Source: Pseudovibrio exalbescens
GTDB lineage: Bacteria > Pseudomonadota > Alphaproteobacteria > Rhizobiales > Stappiaceae
DNA length: 64,000 bases
Reading direction: 5' to 3'
NCBI RefSeq assembly: GCF_028737195.1
Contig: NZ_JAQZAJ010000001.1
Span: 496,001-560,000 of the forward strand
Below the pieces are notes generated by a model, which searched no databases, was not told the DNA's origin, and saw only the letters and a program-made list of their open reading frames with translations. Each line of letters opens with the position of its first letter. The first letter of the stretch is position 1. Positions 22,134 to 28,871 of the stretch are shown piece after piece. The position numbers and the translations under genes were made by a program.

Positions 22134-22445
22134 TTAGTCAAAGCTCTTGCGAACCCACCACACCAGTCCGCAAACAAGAGCGAAGGGCAGGGCCGTGTAG
22201 CCAAAGAACAAAGGCACCATCAGCAGCCCCCAAGCGGCTATCATGCCAATAGAGTAGAGGGTGTCGCCCACGTCCACCCCCGCGATCATGCATGGATTGG
22301 GAAAGCCCTCGTGCACCATGCAATCTGTGAAATTTCCAACCAAGATCATGATGGCCACACAGCCAAGCCAGATGGCAAAGGGAAATGCCACATAGAGAAT
22401 GAGGAGAATCTTTGGGCGTAGAACAGCAACAAAAAGGCGTCGCAT
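22134..22445 (-). CDS. Small membrane protein of unknown function
   Basis: This 103-residue protein has two clear hydrophobic segments, about residues 10-37 (LRPKILLILYVAFPFAIWLG...) and 66-95 (IGMIAAWGLLMVPLFFGYTA...). Between them is a hydrophilic loop with Cys42 and Cys52 that could form a disulfide bond. I recognise no family. It lies 17 bases downstream of the FrnE-like gene on the same strand and may be the last gene of that operon. Confidence 0.6.
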   Translation of the reverse strand: MRRLFVAVLRPKILLILYVAFPFAIWLGCVAIMILVGNFTDCMVHEGFPNPCMIAGVDVGDTLYSIGMIAAWGLLMVPLFFGYTALPFALVCGLVWWVRKSFD

Positions 22446-22462: not shown

Positions 22463-23119
22463 TCAGCTCAAGGACCGGGTCTGGTCTGCATGCATCAGCG
22501 CTGCAGCGATGGTTTCGGGTTGCTCGGCCCCGGAAATGCCAAACCGGTTGTCAACCACGAAGAACGGCACCCCAGTAACACCCATCACTGAAGCTTGCTC
22601 AACAGCGGCACTGACATTGGCGAGGTCTTCATCGCTTTCCAGTCTTCGACGGATCGCCTCAGTCTCAAGGCCTGCATCCCCAGCAATCTCAGATAACGTG
22701 TCGATACGGCTCAAATCTTTTCCGTCGATAAAGAAGGCCTGAAACAGAGCTTCCACCATCTCTTCCTGCCGGTCGTTTTCTTGAGCCCACAGGATGAGGC
22801 GATGTCCGTTCAAGGTGTTGGGGGACTTGGTGATCTTGTCGAAGGCAAATGGAATTTCTTCCTGCTGGCCTGCGGCCTCGATCCGGGAATAGACTTCCTT
22901 GGCTTGCTCCGCCCCGCCGAATTTCTCTGATAGGTAAAGCTGACGGTCTTTGCCTTCCGCTGGCAGCGTACTGTCGAGCTGAAACGGAAGCCATGTGGTT
23001 TCAACTTTGATGTCCGGCACCAATGCCAGCGCCTTTTCAAAGCGCCGTTTTCCGATGTAGCACCAAGGGCACATCACGTCTGAAATCACGCTGACTTTGA
23101 GGGGAACAGGTCCAAACAT
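22463..23119 (-). CDS. DsbA/FrnE family thiol-disulfide oxidoreductase
   Basis: This 218-residue thioredoxin-fold protein matches the FrnE/2-hydroxychromene-2-carboxylate isomerase branch of DsbA. The active site CPWC lies in SDVMCPWCYIGKRRFEKAL. The helical insertion has NTLNGHRLILWAQE, and the C-terminal cis-Pro loop reads VTGVPFFVVDNRFGISGAQ-like with GISGAE. No signal peptide is visible, so it is probably cytosolic. Some FrnE proteins help resist oxidative stress. I chose the ATG at 23119; a TTG at 23167 would overlap the upstream gene. It follows the REC-GGDEF gene by 37 bases. Confidence 0.85.
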   Translation of the reverse strand: MFGPVPLKVSVISDVMCPWCYIGKRRFEKALALVPDIKVETTWLPFQLDSTLPAEGKDRQLYLSEKFGGAEQAKEVYSRIEAAGQQEEIPFAFDKITKSPNTLNGHRLILWAQENDRQEEMVEALFQAFFIDGKDLSRIDTLSEIAGDAGLETEAIRRRLESDEDLANVSAAVEQASVMGVTGVPFFVVDNRFGISGAEQPETIAAALMHADQTRSLS

Positions 23120-23156
23120 CTTTATGCTCTCGTTGAGTGGCCGGGGACGCCTATGG

Positions 23157-24395
23157 TCAGTTACCAAGACCTGTTGTGCGTACCATCATCATGATGCGGC
23201 TGGAAAGCTGGTCCATGCCCTTTTTGGTGCGCAAAAGCGCGATCGGCCCCCGGTTTTCGACATTGGCGACAAAGTCCTCATCCCGGCACACGGCCATTGC
23301 GATAGAAAGAACTGTCCCTGTCCAAGCGTCTCTATTACGAGACATCAGTGAATCGTCGTGAGCCGTAAAACGGCCAATCAAATCGAGAAGGTCCAGCTCA
23401 AATACGGACTCGCCGCGTCGACCAGTGGAGTCCTTGAGCATCTCCAGGTAATCGAGATAGATCTGCTCATCCAACAATCCATTGGACTGCCCCCGTGAGA
23501 GCAGCTTGCTGGATGCCGTCAAAATTCCGTTGGAGAGGCGCTGGCGCCGTCCTGCGCGCAGAGCTGACATCAGATGCCCATAGACAGCCGGATCGGCCAT
23601 GTTGCCCACCAGCACGTCCGTAGCGCCTGCTGCGTACAAAGTTTCCGCATCCTCTCGGTTCGAGGCATAGGCAAGGGTGGGCAAGCTGTAAAAGCGCGGG
23701 TCAGCTCTCAGGCGCGAAATTGTATCGCAGCTTTCCCAAAGAGGCCCATCCAGCATCAGTGCCTCAAAGCTCCGCTGTCCGAGGAACTCCAGTGTCATGT
23801 CAGCGGTAAAGGTTGCAATCACTTCTGCCTTGCGGTCAGTCAGGCTCTGTACCAGCGCAAAATGCCCGCCCATCCCGGCAAGCAGCAGGGTGGGCTTGTC
23901 ATCAATGTCGCTGAAGGTTTCCGAGGCGATCTGTGTTCCCAGCAAGCGGCGGCGCAAACGCGCTTCTTCCGAGCGCAAGGCCATTCGCCGAACCATGGCA
24001 AGGCGGGGGATCAATACGCTTGGGGGAATGGCATCACTAAAGCACGCACTGGCCTTCATGTTGAGCGGCACCTGCGCGTTGCCTGAGGTTATGATGACCA
24101 ACGGCACTTCAACATGCTGGTTGCGTCTGTATCCCTTCAGATACGCGGCCATTTCCGTCAGCTCTGGTGGGTTTGCCACCGACCACGGCAGGATGACGCA
24201 GACCGGCAACGGCGCAGCATGATCAAGTTCATCCTGAAGCGCTGAAAGACTGCGGATGATGGTGAGCCGGTCTGAAAGCTCCGCAAGCGGTGCCAGCATG
24301 TCAAGAACGTGCGTCTTGACGGGAGACAGGAGCAGGATCTTCCCGAAGCTGCTGGTCTCTTCTACTTGCAGATTTACGGAGCTCAGATGGGTCAT
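23157..24395 (-). CDS. Degenerate REC-REC-GGDEF (PleD-like) protein
   Basis: This 412-residue protein resembles PleD in layout. Residues about 18-130 and 155-285 look like receiver domains, and about 325-412 like a GGDEF domain. The first receiver lacks the phosphorylation Asp (VCVILPWSV). The second keeps an Asp in EALMLDGPL but lacks the acidic pair at its start (LLLAGMGG). The C-terminal part keeps the CRDEDF stretch that precedes the GGDEF loop, but the loop itself reads ENRGP. It should therefore neither accept phosphate normally nor make cyclic di-GMP. It may be a structural regulator. It lies eight bases after the degenerate ligase, so the two are surely co-expressed. Domain calls are by eye. 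Confidence 0.6.
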   Translation of the reverse strand: MTHLSSVNLQVEETSSFGKILLLSPVKTHVLDMLAPLAELSDRLTIIRSLSALQDELDHAAPLPVCVILPWSVANPPELTEMAAYLKGYRRNQHVEVPLVIITSGNAQVPLNMKASACFSDAIPPSVLIPRLAMVRRMALRSEEARLRRRLLGTQIASETFSDIDDKPTLLLAGMGGHFALVQSLTDRKAEVIATFTADMTLEFLGQRSFEALMLDGPLWESCDTISRLRADPRFYSLPTLAYASNREDAETLYAAGATDVLVGNMADPAVYGHLMSALRAGRRQRLSNGILTASSKLLSRGQSNGLLDEQIYLDYLEMLKDSTGRRGESVFELDLLDLIGRFTAHDDSLMSRNRDAWTGTVLSIAMAVCRDEDFVANVENRGPIALLRTKKGMDQLSSRIMMMVRTTGLGN

Positions 24396-24403
24396 ATGTC
24401 CTC

Positions 24404-26026
24404 TCAGGCCACCGCGGTTTTCTCTCTTGGCTGAGAGCGGCGTGCCAATCTTGTTCTATCGACTTCACCCGCTTCCGAGCGTGGCAGCGAGCGCAATGAG
24501 AAGATGCGGTGGGGCAGCATCGCCAAGCTGACGCGTTCTGCATCCAGATACGCATAGAATGCGTCCACATCTACCGTTGCACCCTCGCTGGGCACGACTG
24601 CGACCATTAAACGGGCACCCAGTACCTCATCTTCTACCAGAAAAGCAGCCGCTTCGCTTACCCCCGGGAATGCACTGTAGATCATATCAAGGTGTGGCAA
24701 TTCAGAGGAATCAGGTGCAATCGTCCCGGTACGGCCAAAATCGGAAATCGCACCGTTTGCGATCTGAACGGGAAGATTGGTTTGCGTACAACCACTTTCG
24801 GTGAGTTCAAGGCAGGTTTCCGCGTCCGGCCAGTTGGCGCTCGGCACCATGGCCCCCTGCAAAGTGATTAGGGTTTCATCCCCGTTATCCAGCGTATCCA
24901 AAGACATGAGCACCGGGCCATGGATGTTGCCGGAAGGCGCATGCACGTTTCCAAGTTCCAATTTGTTTGGCAGAACATTGGTGCCGCGCAGTTTGGCGAC
25001 AAAACCAAAGTCCTCCAGCACATGAAGATCTATGAAGGTGCCATTTGACTTGTAGCGGGCAGGGCGCGTTGAGGTCGGCGACCAGACAGCGGTTACGGCC
25101 GTGTTCCAGCCTTGCAAGGCTTCATCGATGTGCGGGGCCAGCGCCCCTGGCACCAGAACATAATCCGCGTCCACCGTTCTGGCATGGTCGGTGAGGCTGT
25201 GAAGGGCAATCGGGTGATGAAGGTGCAAGGTTCCTTCGCTCAAAAGCCAGGGAACCAGCCCTGCGCCGATTCCAGTCATGCCACAGGCCACAAAGGGCAC
25301 GACCAGATTGGCCTTGGTCTTCAGCCGCGCCTCCAGAAATGGCATCAATCCCGCCGAGATCCAGTGGTTGTGGCTTCGAGGTACAGGTGCCGGACCATGT
25401 TTGGTCTGGATCCAGGTAAGTGTGGCGATGTGGTTGGCGGCGTTCTTGTCCGCGCTGCGCCCAACTGTTTCTGCAGCCTCCGCGTACTGCTGCACGAGCG
25501 GGGCCAACTCCAGCACCCCATCTGGAACGGAACTGCCAAGGCCAAATACAAACTTCAGCGAGAAATAATCCGCAGCGGCATCTCGCGCATCTTCGCCGAG
25601 GAAACGCGCTTCAATACGGTCAGCGGTGATGAAAGCCTTAGCGCCCACCGTGCTCAAAGCCTGAAGGATTTCCCGGTGACGCCAGTGCAGCGGGAAGGGG
25701 GACACAATCAAACCGGCCCGCCATGCGCCCAGCATGGTCAGCACCGTGTCAACTGTGTTGGGCGCTTGAATGCCGATCACCTTGTCGGGTTCCAGCCCCA
25801 CGGCAGAGAAAAACGCCGCAATGCGATTGATCTCTTCTTCTGCCTGCTTGAACGTCAATTTGCGCGGCTTGCCGCCGGTCCATTGGGCGCGGTCCGGCGC
25901 GTCCACCAGTGCCAATTGGTGCGGGTTTGTCTGCGCGGCGCGTTTCACCAGCGCATCCAAGGTTACCGAGCCCCAGACACCGCTGGTGGTGTATTGCGCG
26001 ATCGTCTCTTCGCTACAAAGGATCAT
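24404..26026 (-). CDS. Degenerate acyl-adenylate-forming (ANL superfamily) protein
   Basis: This 540-residue protein has the overall shape of an AMP-binding acyl-CoA synthetase. It has an N-terminal LTFKQAEEEINRIAAFF and PDKVIGIQAPNTVDTVLTML, a P-loop region before RSHNHW, and a C-terminal AAFLVEDEVLGARLMVAVVP. Key residues are gone. The Ser/Thr/Gly-rich P-loop (normally like TSGTTGxPK) reads WIQTKHGPAPVP (residues 205-216). The catalytic Lys of the C-terminal GKxxR motif is Glu521 in AGEVDR. It probably does not activate acids in the standard way. The start at 26026 has a GGGGG tract upstream; longer frames overlap the binding-protein gene. It is 20 bases from that gene and eight from the REC-GGDEF gene. 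Confidence 0.65.
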   Translation of the reverse strand: MILCSEETIAQYTTSGVWGSVTLDALVKRAAQTNPHQLALVDAPDRAQWTGGKPRKLTFKQAEEEINRIAAFFSAVGLEPDKVIGIQAPNTVDTVLTMLGAWRAGLIVSPFPLHWRHREILQALSTVGAKAFITADRIEARFLGEDARDAAADYFSLKFVFGLGSSVPDGVLELAPLVQQYAEAAETVGRSADKNAANHIATLTWIQTKHGPAPVPRSHNHWISAGLMPFLEARLKTKANLVVPFVACGMTGIGAGLVPWLLSEGTLHLHHPIALHSLTDHARTVDADYVLVPGALAPHIDEALQGWNTAVTAVWSPTSTRPARYKSNGTFIDLHVLEDFGFVAKLRGTNVLPNKLELGNVHAPSGNIHGPVLMSLDTLDNGDETLITLQGAMVPSANWPDAETCLELTESGCTQTNLPVQIANGAISDFGRTGTIAPDSSELPHLDMIYSAFPGVSEAAAFLVEDEVLGARLMVAVVPSEGATVDVDAFYAYLDAERVSLAMLPHRIFSLRSLPRSEAGEVDRTRLARRSQPREKTAVA

Positions 26027-26046: not shown

Positions 26047-27930
26047 TTATTGAGAAGCGGTGGCTGACCACCAATTGTCGTATTGATGACCATAGGTCGG
26101 GCTCTTTTCCGGGTGTTCCAGCGTGGTCCAGCGGCCCACCCATTCATTGGGAACGTGGTAAAGAGGTATAGCATAAGCACCGGAAATGAGCACACGGTCC
26201 ATGGCGCGAACAGCGGCAACGAAGTCTTCACGGCTGCGGGCCGCGACCATGGCGTCAATCAAAGCATCCAGTGCAGGTTCTTTTGCCCCAACAATATTGC
26301 GCGAACCTTTGATGTCTGCAGCTTCAGACGACCACCGGGCATATTGTTCACCGCCCGGTGACAGGGAAGCGGACCAACTGTTGAACAGCATGTCGAAATC
26401 AAAGTTGAAGCGGCGCTCCTCGAACTGAGAGGCATCAACGGAGCGAACCTGCATATCCACACCAACCAGTTTCATGGTGCGTTGCAGGGTCAGCGCCACA
26501 CGTTCTTCATCTTGAGTACGAACGAGAATTTCGAAGGAAAGAGGCTCTCCTGTTTCGGCGTTTACCAGTTTGCGGTCCTGCAGCTTGTATCCGGCTTCTT
26601 GCAGCAGAGAAAGCGCGCCTCTAAGTACCGCGCGATCGCGGCCAGAACCATCCGCCTGAGAGGGACGCCAAGTTCCATCCATTACATCGCTATCAACCGC
26701 GCCTTCAAACTCAACAAGGAGATGGCGTTCTTGTGCACTGGCCGGCTGGCCAATGGAAGACAGCTCGGAATTGTCCCAATAGCCCGCCGTGCGCTGGTAG
26801 AGACCGCGGAAGAGCGTGCGATTGATGAAGTCGAAATCAACGAGCATACCCAGCGCCTGCCGGACGCGCTTGTCTTGAAACTGCGGACGACGGGTGTTGA
26901 AGGCGAGGCCCAGCATTGGGGCTGGGGTTCCTTTTTCAAAGACGTCTTTGACGACCCGCCCTTCGTTGAATGCTGGAAAGTCGAAACCGGTCTCCCAGGT
27001 GGCTGGGTTCCCAATCTGCAAAGCTTCCACATCGCCTTTCTTGAATGCCTCCAACAAGGCATTGCTGTCGCGGAAGTAGTCGATGGAGATCACGTCGAAA
27101 TTGTCAAAGCCGACTTTTACAGGCAGGTCTTTAGCCCAGTAGTCAGGATCACGCTCATAAACCACGCGGCGGCCGGGATCGACTTCTTTAAAGGTATAGG
27201 GGCCCGAGCCGACCGGAGGCACCAAGGTGCTTTGGTCAAAGGTGTCTGGATTCGTATCGCTTTTGGAGAAGATCGGAGCCAAAGCAATCAAGAGGGGCAG
27301 TTCGCGATCCTTACCATCGGCGAAGTGCAACTTGATGGAGCGTTCTCCGGTACGTTCAAACTCCGTGATGCGGCTGTACCAGCCTTTGAATGGCGGGCGT
27401 CCTTTCTCACTCATGATCTTCAGTGAGAACTCCACATCTTCCACAGTCACAGGCTTGTCATTGGAGAATTTGGCGGCTGGATTCAGGCGAAATTCTATCC
27501 AATTTCTCTCGTCTGGCATCCGTACGGCTTCGGCCAGATGGCCATAAAGCGTGAACGCTTCATCATTAGATCTTATGAGAAGGCTTTCAAAAATGTTCTG
27601 CCCCATCTGGCGCTCTTTCATGCCGCGCGCAGAGGTCCAGGCCCCTTTCAGGATGAACTGGTTCAAGCTGTCGAAGGTACCCTGAACACCAAGCCGGATA
27701 CGGCCACCCTTGGGCGCATCGGGATTGGCATAAGGAAAGTGTGTAAACCCTTCCGGGAGCGCGGGTTTTCCGTGCATGGAAATTCCGTGACCCCATGGAA
27801 CGGTCTCATCGGCGAAGGCGGGGGCGCTCACGCTCAAGGGGGCGGCCAAGGCCATGCCGAGAAATGCAGTAAGCATAAAGCGCAGCCTTTTGGTGGAGAC
27901 AGCGCTTGGGGAACTGCAGAAAGAGACCAT
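26047..27930 (-). CDS. ABC transporter family 5 solute-binding protein, YejA-like
   Basis: This 627-residue periplasmic binding protein has a signal peptide cut near APAFADE. The following HGISMHGKPALPEGFTHFPY and NPDAPKGGRIRLG is the YejA-type start, and VGSGPYTFKEVDPGRRVVYERDPDYW is the family 5 signature. Such proteins bind peptides (or microcin C in YejA). AGGAGA lies upstream of the ATG. No permease or ATPase genes follow. Instead the operon continues with the degenerate ligase, the REC-GGDEF protein and the FrnE-like protein. The cognate transporter must be elsewhere if it exists. Confidence 0.9.
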   Translation of the reverse strand: MVSFCSSPSAVSTKRLRFMLTAFLGMALAAPLSVSAPAFADETVPWGHGISMHGKPALPEGFTHFPYANPDAPKGGRIRLGVQGTFDSLNQFILKGAWTSARGMKERQMGQNIFESLLIRSNDEAFTLYGHLAEAVRMPDERNWIEFRLNPAAKFSNDKPVTVEDVEFSLKIMSEKGRPPFKGWYSRITEFERTGERSIKLHFADGKDRELPLLIALAPIFSKSDTNPDTFDQSTLVPPVGSGPYTFKEVDPGRRVVYERDPDYWAKDLPVKVGFDNFDVISIDYFRDSNALLEAFKKGDVEALQIGNPATWETGFDFPAFNEGRVVKDVFEKGTPAPMLGLAFNTRRPQFQDKRVRQALGMLVDFDFINRTLFRGLYQRTAGYWDNSELSSIGQPASAQERHLLVEFEGAVDSDVMDGTWRPSQADGSGRDRAVLRGALSLLQEAGYKLQDRKLVNAETGEPLSFEILVRTQDEERVALTLQRTMKLVGVDMQVRSVDASQFEERRFNFDFDMLFNSWSASLSPGGEQYARWSSEAADIKGSRNIVGAKEPALDALIDAMVAARSREDFVAAVRAMDRVLISGAYAIPLYHVPNEWVGRWTTLEHPEKSPTYGHQYDNWWSATASQ

Positions 27931-28247
27931 TCAGATTTCTCCTAGGGAACTGTTTAGGAATTATGTTTAATATGATTCTGTCACAACGCCAGCCTACCGA
28001 CCTTTGGAAAAGCCCCCATTCACGGGTATTCTATGCCTAGAAATTTGCCGTGGACATGTTTAAACAGGGGCTAAATGGCATTCCTCTTCGTGCTTTGGTG
28101 TTTACTCTGAACCCTTCAAGCGGGTGCACTGGCGCAATCAGCCGCTGTGTTTATGTGGTGGAAGAGAGCTTGTCTCACAGATTTACAGGTCGCCGACATG
28201 CACTGTCTTCAGTTATGGTCGGCCGCAAACAATTGAGGGAATTTGGA
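27931..28247. other. Divergent intergenic region before ialB
   Basis: About 317 bases separate the divergently transcribed binding-protein operon and ialB. The half next to 27931 is AT-rich and should contain the minus-strand promoter. An in-frame ATG at 28050 extends the ialB frame but has no conserved sequence. I see no strong palindrome or other gene here. Confidence 0.45.
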
Positions 28248-28871
28248 ATGGCCAATCATTTGAAGCGCATTGTTGCTGGTGGGGCAATGGCTGTCGTGGC
28301 GGCACTCGGCTTTTCGACTGCTGCGTCCGCACAGGCTCAGCCTGATGATGCTTGGGTAAAGGTGTGTAACACTGATCCGAACTCTAAGAAGGAATTTTGC
28401 CTCATTACCCAGGAACTGCGTACCGACACTGGCCAGTTCCTTGCTCAGGCAGTTGTGCGCGAAGTGACCGGCGAAAGCCGCAAGCTTCTGCACCTGGCAG
28501 TTCCTCCAGGAATGCTGATCCAGCCTGGCCTGCGTGTTCAGATCGATGCTGCAAACCCGACCGAAGCCAAATACACCATCTGTTTCCCGAATGCGTGTAT
28601 CGCTGAACTCGTGATCGACGACGCATTCATCGGTTCCATGAAGCGCGGCAACAAGCTGGTCATCACGACGCTGAACCAGCAGGGCAAGCCACGTCCGTTT
28701 GACATGACGCTTTCTGGTTTCACCCGCGTTTACGACGGTGAGGCAATCAAGCCGGAAGAACTGCAGCGCAAGCAAGAGCAGCTTCAGTCCGAACTGCAAA
28801 AGCGCGCGGAAGAAGCACGTCAGCGCCTGATCGAACAGCAGCGCAAGGCGAGCGAAGCAGCAAACAACTAA
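28248..28871 (+). CDS. Invasion-associated locus B (IalB) family protein
   Basis: This 207-residue exported protein has a signal peptide (VAGGAMAVVAALGFSTAASA) and an IalB domain, named after a Bartonella protein linked to red-cell invasion but widespread in non-pathogenic Rhizobiales. Marks are WVKVCNTDP...FCLITQELR and the paired Cys of KYTICFPNACIAEL, likely forming disulfides. The last 40 residues (from EELQRKQEQLQSELQKRAEE) form a charged, coiled-coil-like tail. I chose the ATG at 28248 with GAGGGA upstream; the longer frame is unconserved. A strong terminator follows. Confidence 0.87.
   Translation: MANHLKRIVAGGAMAVVAALGFSTAASAQAQPDDAWVKVCNTDPNSKKEFCLITQELRTDTGQFLAQAVVREVTGESRKLLHLAVPPGMLIQPGLRVQIDAANPTEAKYTICFPNACIAELVIDDAFIGSMKRGNKLVITTLNQQGKPRPFDMTLSGFTRVYDGEAIKPEELQRKQEQLQSELQKRAEEARQRLIEQQRKASEAANN

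Follow-up and report, generated by a model that had tools for sequence, protein, structure and literature searches.

An order-wide pseudo-ligase and a candidate PopA-like c-di-GMP receptor in a putative yepA locus of Hyphomicrobiales

The DNA analysed here, a stretch of 64,000 nucleotides referred to as the window, belongs to a Pseudovibrio-like host of the family Stappiaceae. Two neighbouring genes, separated by 8 bases, encode P0001, a relative of acyl-adenylating ligases, and P0002, a degenerate REC-REC-GGDEF protein; the corresponding families are designated LIGA and REG, respectively (Table 1). For both proteins, the closest named match is found in Pseudovibrio exalbescens, with identities of 81% (P0001) and 74% (P0002). 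The frames, coordinates, and spacing reported in a preliminary description of this locus, in which the two genes were presented as decayed pseudoenzymes kept side by side, were reproduced exactly. Between the DsbA-like gene and enolase, a further gene (22134-22445, minus strand) encodes a partly hydrophobic 103-aa protein without a Pfam match, a counterpart of which occurs in P. exalbescens (50%). A role in anti-phage defence was also considered and was rejected, as PADLOC returned zero matches.

Table 1. Coordinates of genes and motifs within the window.
Feature	Position	Strand	Basis
P0002 (REG), degenerate REC-REC-GGDEF protein, 412 aa, candidate c-di-GMP receptor	23157..24395	-	Sequence and profile comparison
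REG I-site RxxD, R371-D-E-D374, equivalent to PleD R359..D362	23274..23285	-	Conservation and independent profile alignment
REG R400, equivalent to PleD R390, third I-site residue	23196..23198	-	Kept in 83/83
ENRGP, P0002 residues 380-384, at the lost GG[DE]EF active-site loop	23244..23258	-	GG[DE]EF in 0/83 homologues
P0001 (LIGA), ANL-family putative pseudo-acyl-adenylate ligase, 540 aa	24404..26026	-	Motifs, profiles
WIQTKHGPAPVP, P0001 residues 205-216, replacing the ATP-binding P-loop	25379..25414	-	P-loop in 0/51 LIGA, 11/11 LIGB
RSHNHW, LIGA motif directly after the lost P-loop	25361..25378	-	RSHN(H/Q)W-like in most LIGA
Glu521 of P0001 at the A10 Lys position	24464..24466	-	Variable among LIGA; Lys in 10/10 LIGB holding the region
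yepA-like SBP of 627 aa (SBP_bac_5), opening the gene run	26047..27930	-	Domain and gene context (PMC9790009)
DsbA-like protein, 221 aa, downstream gene	22463..23128	-	PF01323; conserved position (PMC9790009)
IalB-domain protein (ORF as listed), RgsG-like, divergent from SBP	28050..28871	+	PF06776; IalB domain of RgsG (PMC7327166)

Across Hyphomicrobiales, the genes surrounding this pair are collinear, running from an SBP5 gene through LIGA to an optional LIGB, an optional REG, and an optional DsbA-like gene, with a convergent mfd in many genomes; in 50 of 52 loci, LIGA is preceded by the SBP gene. According to PMC9790009, Agrobacterium YepA (Atu1774) is a peptidoglycan-fragment SBP of YejBEF that is encoded apart from yejABEF, in the neighbourhood of a gene for a cytoplasmic DsbA-like protein and the polar-growth gene rgsG. 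RgsG in turn carries an IalB domain (PMC7327166). The SBP of the window is likewise encoded apart from the genome's own yejABEF-like cluster, differs from both SBPs of that cluster, and has DsbA-like and IalB-domain genes beside it, with LIGA and REG separating the DsbA-like gene from the SBP. Because of this arrangement, the locus is read as a yepA locus and its SBP as YepA, an assignment made by context and relative similarity. The yejABEF-like cluster, named from SBP similarity, gene size, gene order, and a Walker A motif, consists of two adjacent YejA-like SBP genes followed by two permease-like genes and a Walker A ATPase gene (L216, 2076-9925).

P0001 shows a partial match to the AMP-binding domain of ANL acyl-CoA and acyl-AMP ligases (PF00501, 71 bits), which covers residues 28-140 only, and its C-terminal match is sub-threshold. 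In NCBIfam, its scores fall far below every cut-off, and no catalytic ANL subfamily can be assigned. The best solved-structure match of LIGA is 5wm2 (157 bits), its closest solved relatives being aryl-acid AMP ligases. Both the replacement of the P-loop in P0001 and the presence of Glu at the position of the catalytic A10 Lys were found as the preliminary description had quoted them. Among relatives, the two losses behave differently: the Ser/Thr/Gly P-loop is absent from all 51 LIGA sequences inspected, which represent more than 30 families, whereas the A10 position drifts and holds Lys in seven of the 40 relatives listed, all of them Stappiaceae from two genera. The expectation that the same residues would always be missing thus holds for the P-loop and fails for A10.

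Using a 17-sequence profile, LIGA was detected in 152 of 297 Hyphomicrobiales genomes (E <= 1e-45), and a draw of 289 genomes from the class yielded just two beyond the order (E <= 1e-60); these matches are L149 (G419) and L150 (G386). Eleven loci encode an intact ligase, LIGB, directly 3' of LIGA; its P-loop is present in all 11, and the A10 Lys in all ten sequences that hold the region. A search of the window genome for a LIGB orthologue elsewhere returned no clear candidate, the best ligase match having 28% identity.

Judged by its motifs, LIGA is an ancient, order-wide, non-catalytic pseudo-ligase of the ANL superfamily. Such a protein would not adenylate in the usual way, and may instead function by virtue of its fold, serving as a scaffold or regulating another protein. 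An active enzyme with a rewired site, built for example around the conserved RSHNHW segment, is improbable. The His/Asn segment following the former P-loop is strongly conserved (H219 in 45/51, R217 in 42/51), as are the LIGA-specific residues G164, D169, G170, and D333, and motif-based pseudoenzyme calls are sometimes wrong (PMC10211241); in the 51 sequences inspected, however, each of four motifs (P-loop, A7 Gly-Asp, A8 Gly-Arg, and A10 Lys) is either lost or variable. In the open-access literature, no description of an ANL pseudoenzyme of the LIGA type was found.

The second protein, P0002, has no match whatever in Pfam or NCBIfam. Profiles of its family, in turn, match PleD over the full length, with 136 bits for a broad set and 188 bits for the better-kept REGs, and PleD is their best solved-structure match. 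When the Stappiaceae REGs alone were compared with canonical PleDs using hhalign, the match was retained (97%, E 7.6e-11), in agreement with the PleD-like REC-REC-GGDEF layout initially proposed. The losses attributed to this protein stand for the first-receiver Asp and for the GGDEF loop (ENRGP); for the second receiver they need correcting, as it keeps its Asp (D216). GG[DE]EF, the diguanylate cyclase loop, occurs in none of the 83 distinct Hyphomicrobiales REGs. The metal-binding Asp (PleD D327) is mostly lost as well, with L, A, M, or E mostly in its place in Stappiaceae REGs. PleD N335 and D344, guanine-binding residues of the active site, have equivalents in most REGs from outside the Stappiaceae (42/48 and 44/48, respectively) but not in those of the Stappiaceae; because of this retention, binding of a guanine nucleotide at the former catalytic site might still occur in the non-Stappiaceae versions. 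The window genome also carries a separate, canonical-scoring PleD-like gene (G000:C20:616216-617526).

The c-di-GMP-binding I-site of PleD comprises R359, D362, and R390, together with R313 of the partner (PMC7288161). In the REG family, R359 and R390 are kept in 83 of 83 sequences and D362 in 81; the trio is complete in all 35 Stappiaceae REGs and in 46 of 48 from other Hyphomicrobiales, the Asp having been lost in L124 and L138. These residues, which alignment of the Stappiaceae REGs alone with canonical PleDs placed identically, correspond in P0002 to R371-D-E-D374 and R400 on either side of ENRGP, and were overlooked when REG was described as decayed. Only 14 of the 412 positions are invariant among the 35 Stappiaceae REGs, and these include R371, E373, D374, and R400; by simple arithmetic, the chance of three named residues all falling within such a set is ~3e-5. 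In four pairs, the segment containing the site (358-412) has a pN of 0.008-0.036 with undiminished pS; for three of these pairs, this is the minimum among the five segments.

A loss of the active site combined with an intact I-site is the pattern of PopA, a degenerate REC-REC-GGDEF c-di-GMP receptor (PMC10333796, PMC10212136), and PopA-like proteins that have an I-site and lack the GGDEF motif have been described as c-di-GMP receptors (PMC10333796). By this residue pattern, the preferred reading of REG is that of a PopA-like c-di-GMP receptor or sensor, apparently derived from a PleD-type REC-REC-GGDEF protein whose cyclase site has gone and whose I-site has been kept. We infer that c-di-GMP would bind there and would probably alter the conformation or partners of REG, as in Caulobacter PopA. 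Since R313, the secondary I-site Arg, is not conserved, REG is unlikely to form a PleD-like dimer cross-linked by (c-di-GMP)2.

That R313 is not conserved also bears on a different explanation, in which the I-site residues persist for reasons of fold or protein-protein contact and REG binds no c-di-GMP. In its favour, E373, beside the motif, shows the same invariance although it is not an I-site residue, and the GGDEF fold near the site is very diverged in Stappiaceae, to the point of leaving no Pfam match. We nonetheless consider this explanation unlikely, given that precisely the three ligand residues survive in the 83 sequences, whereas the catalytic residues nearby are free to vary. A broader lesson is that the I-site of a "degenerate GGDEF" protein should be checked before the protein is called decayed. 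Other alphaproteobacterial orders contain REG-like REC-REC-GGDEF proteins with an I-site (L181-L187, L194, L209), where the LIGA profile has no match; one of these carries GGDEF and one SGEEF, and they may be ancestors or PopA-like proteins.

Both genes are under purifying selection, and their losses are ancient. In most pairs, dN/dS is 0.05-0.10 for LIGA and 0.02-0.09 for REG. Saturation affects several of the dS values; in G009/G014, where it is less pronounced, the ratios are 0.06 and 0.03, respectively. Selection on REG is relaxed in one genus (0.36, G024 versus G034). The earlier view of two proteins non-catalytic by motif yet under selection is upheld, whereas "decayed" is a poor description of them, since the losses are old and REG has selectively kept the residues of a c-di-GMP-binding site. 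Recent pseudogenization of either gene was rejected from dN/dS and distribution. The related idea that both genes are relics drifting towards loss draws on a single genome, G030, with in-frame stops in both and a broken DsbA gene. It is highly improbable, being largely refuted by dN/dS values of 0.02-0.1 in most pairs together with order-wide conservation; among 36 Stappiaceae relatives, two lack LIGA, one has a broken LIGA, and one a broken REG. At the G030 locus (L072, 4532-8765), the SBP gene remains open, and the damage reflects either the loss of everything downstream or errors in the assembly.

Each of the 36 same-family relatives searched has a homologue of P0002, as do some other families; homologues of P0001 were found in 34 of the 36, the exceptions being the Pseudovibrio genomes G010 and G012. 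As initially proposed, the two genes are neighbours across the order: of 45 assessable genomes from outside the Stappiaceae, 44 have REG on the strand of LIGA, on its 3' side and no more than ~3.5 kb away (exception, G308), a count taken from profile-match coordinates that leaves out six further genomes cut by contig ends. REG also adjoins LIGA in nearly all Stappiaceae. This proximity speaks for a dedicated non-catalytic complex of LIGA and REG, possibly gated by c-di-GMP. The linkage, however, is strong but not absolute, and an obligate shared complex is not supported. In G012, LIGA has been lost from between the SBP and REG genes, and REG is kept; in G010, REG is kept without LIGA among IS-transposase-like ORFs. 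Many genomes in many families have LIGA without REG, so LIGA must have a REG-independent job too, and the REG-like proteins of other orders occur without LIGA. Moreover, the linkage may merely reflect a common yepA locus. On balance, a dedicated complex seems unlikely, and any physical contact between LIGA and REG is putative. The REGs of G010 and G012 both keep RDED and the downstream Arg, and this retention of the I-site without LIGA fits a c-di-GMP receptor better than it does a subunit that LIGA holds in place. The translocated REG of G010 (L078, 3172-13434) is intact and stands alone; a fragment of a YepA-like SBP lies where that stretch ends. AlphaFold2 models of each protein, made from two-sequence alignments, had mean pLDDT values of 31 and 39, too low for interpretation.

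The explanation that best accommodates the whole is a c-di-GMP receptor (REG) and a pseudo-ligase (LIGA) encoded in a yepA locus, to which we assign a probability of roughly 0.5. The locus would then comprise the rgsG-like gene, yepA, LIGA, in some genomes the active ligase LIGB, REG, and the dsbA-like gene. As both genes belong to this locus, their most likely role would be to connect c-di-GMP state with the recycling of peptidoglycan fragments or with polar growth of the envelope. More ambitiously, and rather doubtfully, LIGA and REG could form an undescribed control module of the yepA locus, in which an order-wide pseudo-ligase and a dedicated c-di-GMP receptor jointly couple c-di-GMP to both cell-wall-fragment recycling and polar growth. 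Hyphomicrobiales are known for unipolar growth; if the reading is right, it would directly connect c-di-GMP signalling with the recycling of peptidoglycan in such an order. LIGA would also become a named pseudoenzyme family of order-wide occurrence, one whose similarity in sequence readily leads to its being annotated as a ligase.

In comparison with known systems, LIGA resembles aryl-acid AMP ligases (salicylate- and DHB-AMP ligases) and acyl-CoA synthetases in its N-terminal domain and overall length, but lacks their P-loop, their A7 and A8 motifs, and a reliable A10 Lys. The SBP of the window is like that of the YepA-YejBEF system in its separation from the yejABEF cluster and its DsbA-like and RgsG-type neighbours; it differs in the insertion of LIGA and REG between the SBP and DsbA-like genes, of which the accessible part of PMC9790009 makes no mention. 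REG differs from PleD in the loss of GG[DE]EF, the metal Asp, and the REC1 Asp/acidic pair. From PopA, the Caulobacter c-di-GMP receptor and ClpXP adaptor, REG is set apart by its neighbours as far as tested (the yepA locus and a pseudo-ligase) and by a GGDEF fold that is far more eroded in Stappiaceae; the two nevertheless have in common the REC-REC-GGDEF architecture, the lost cyclase motif, and the retained RxxD I-site.
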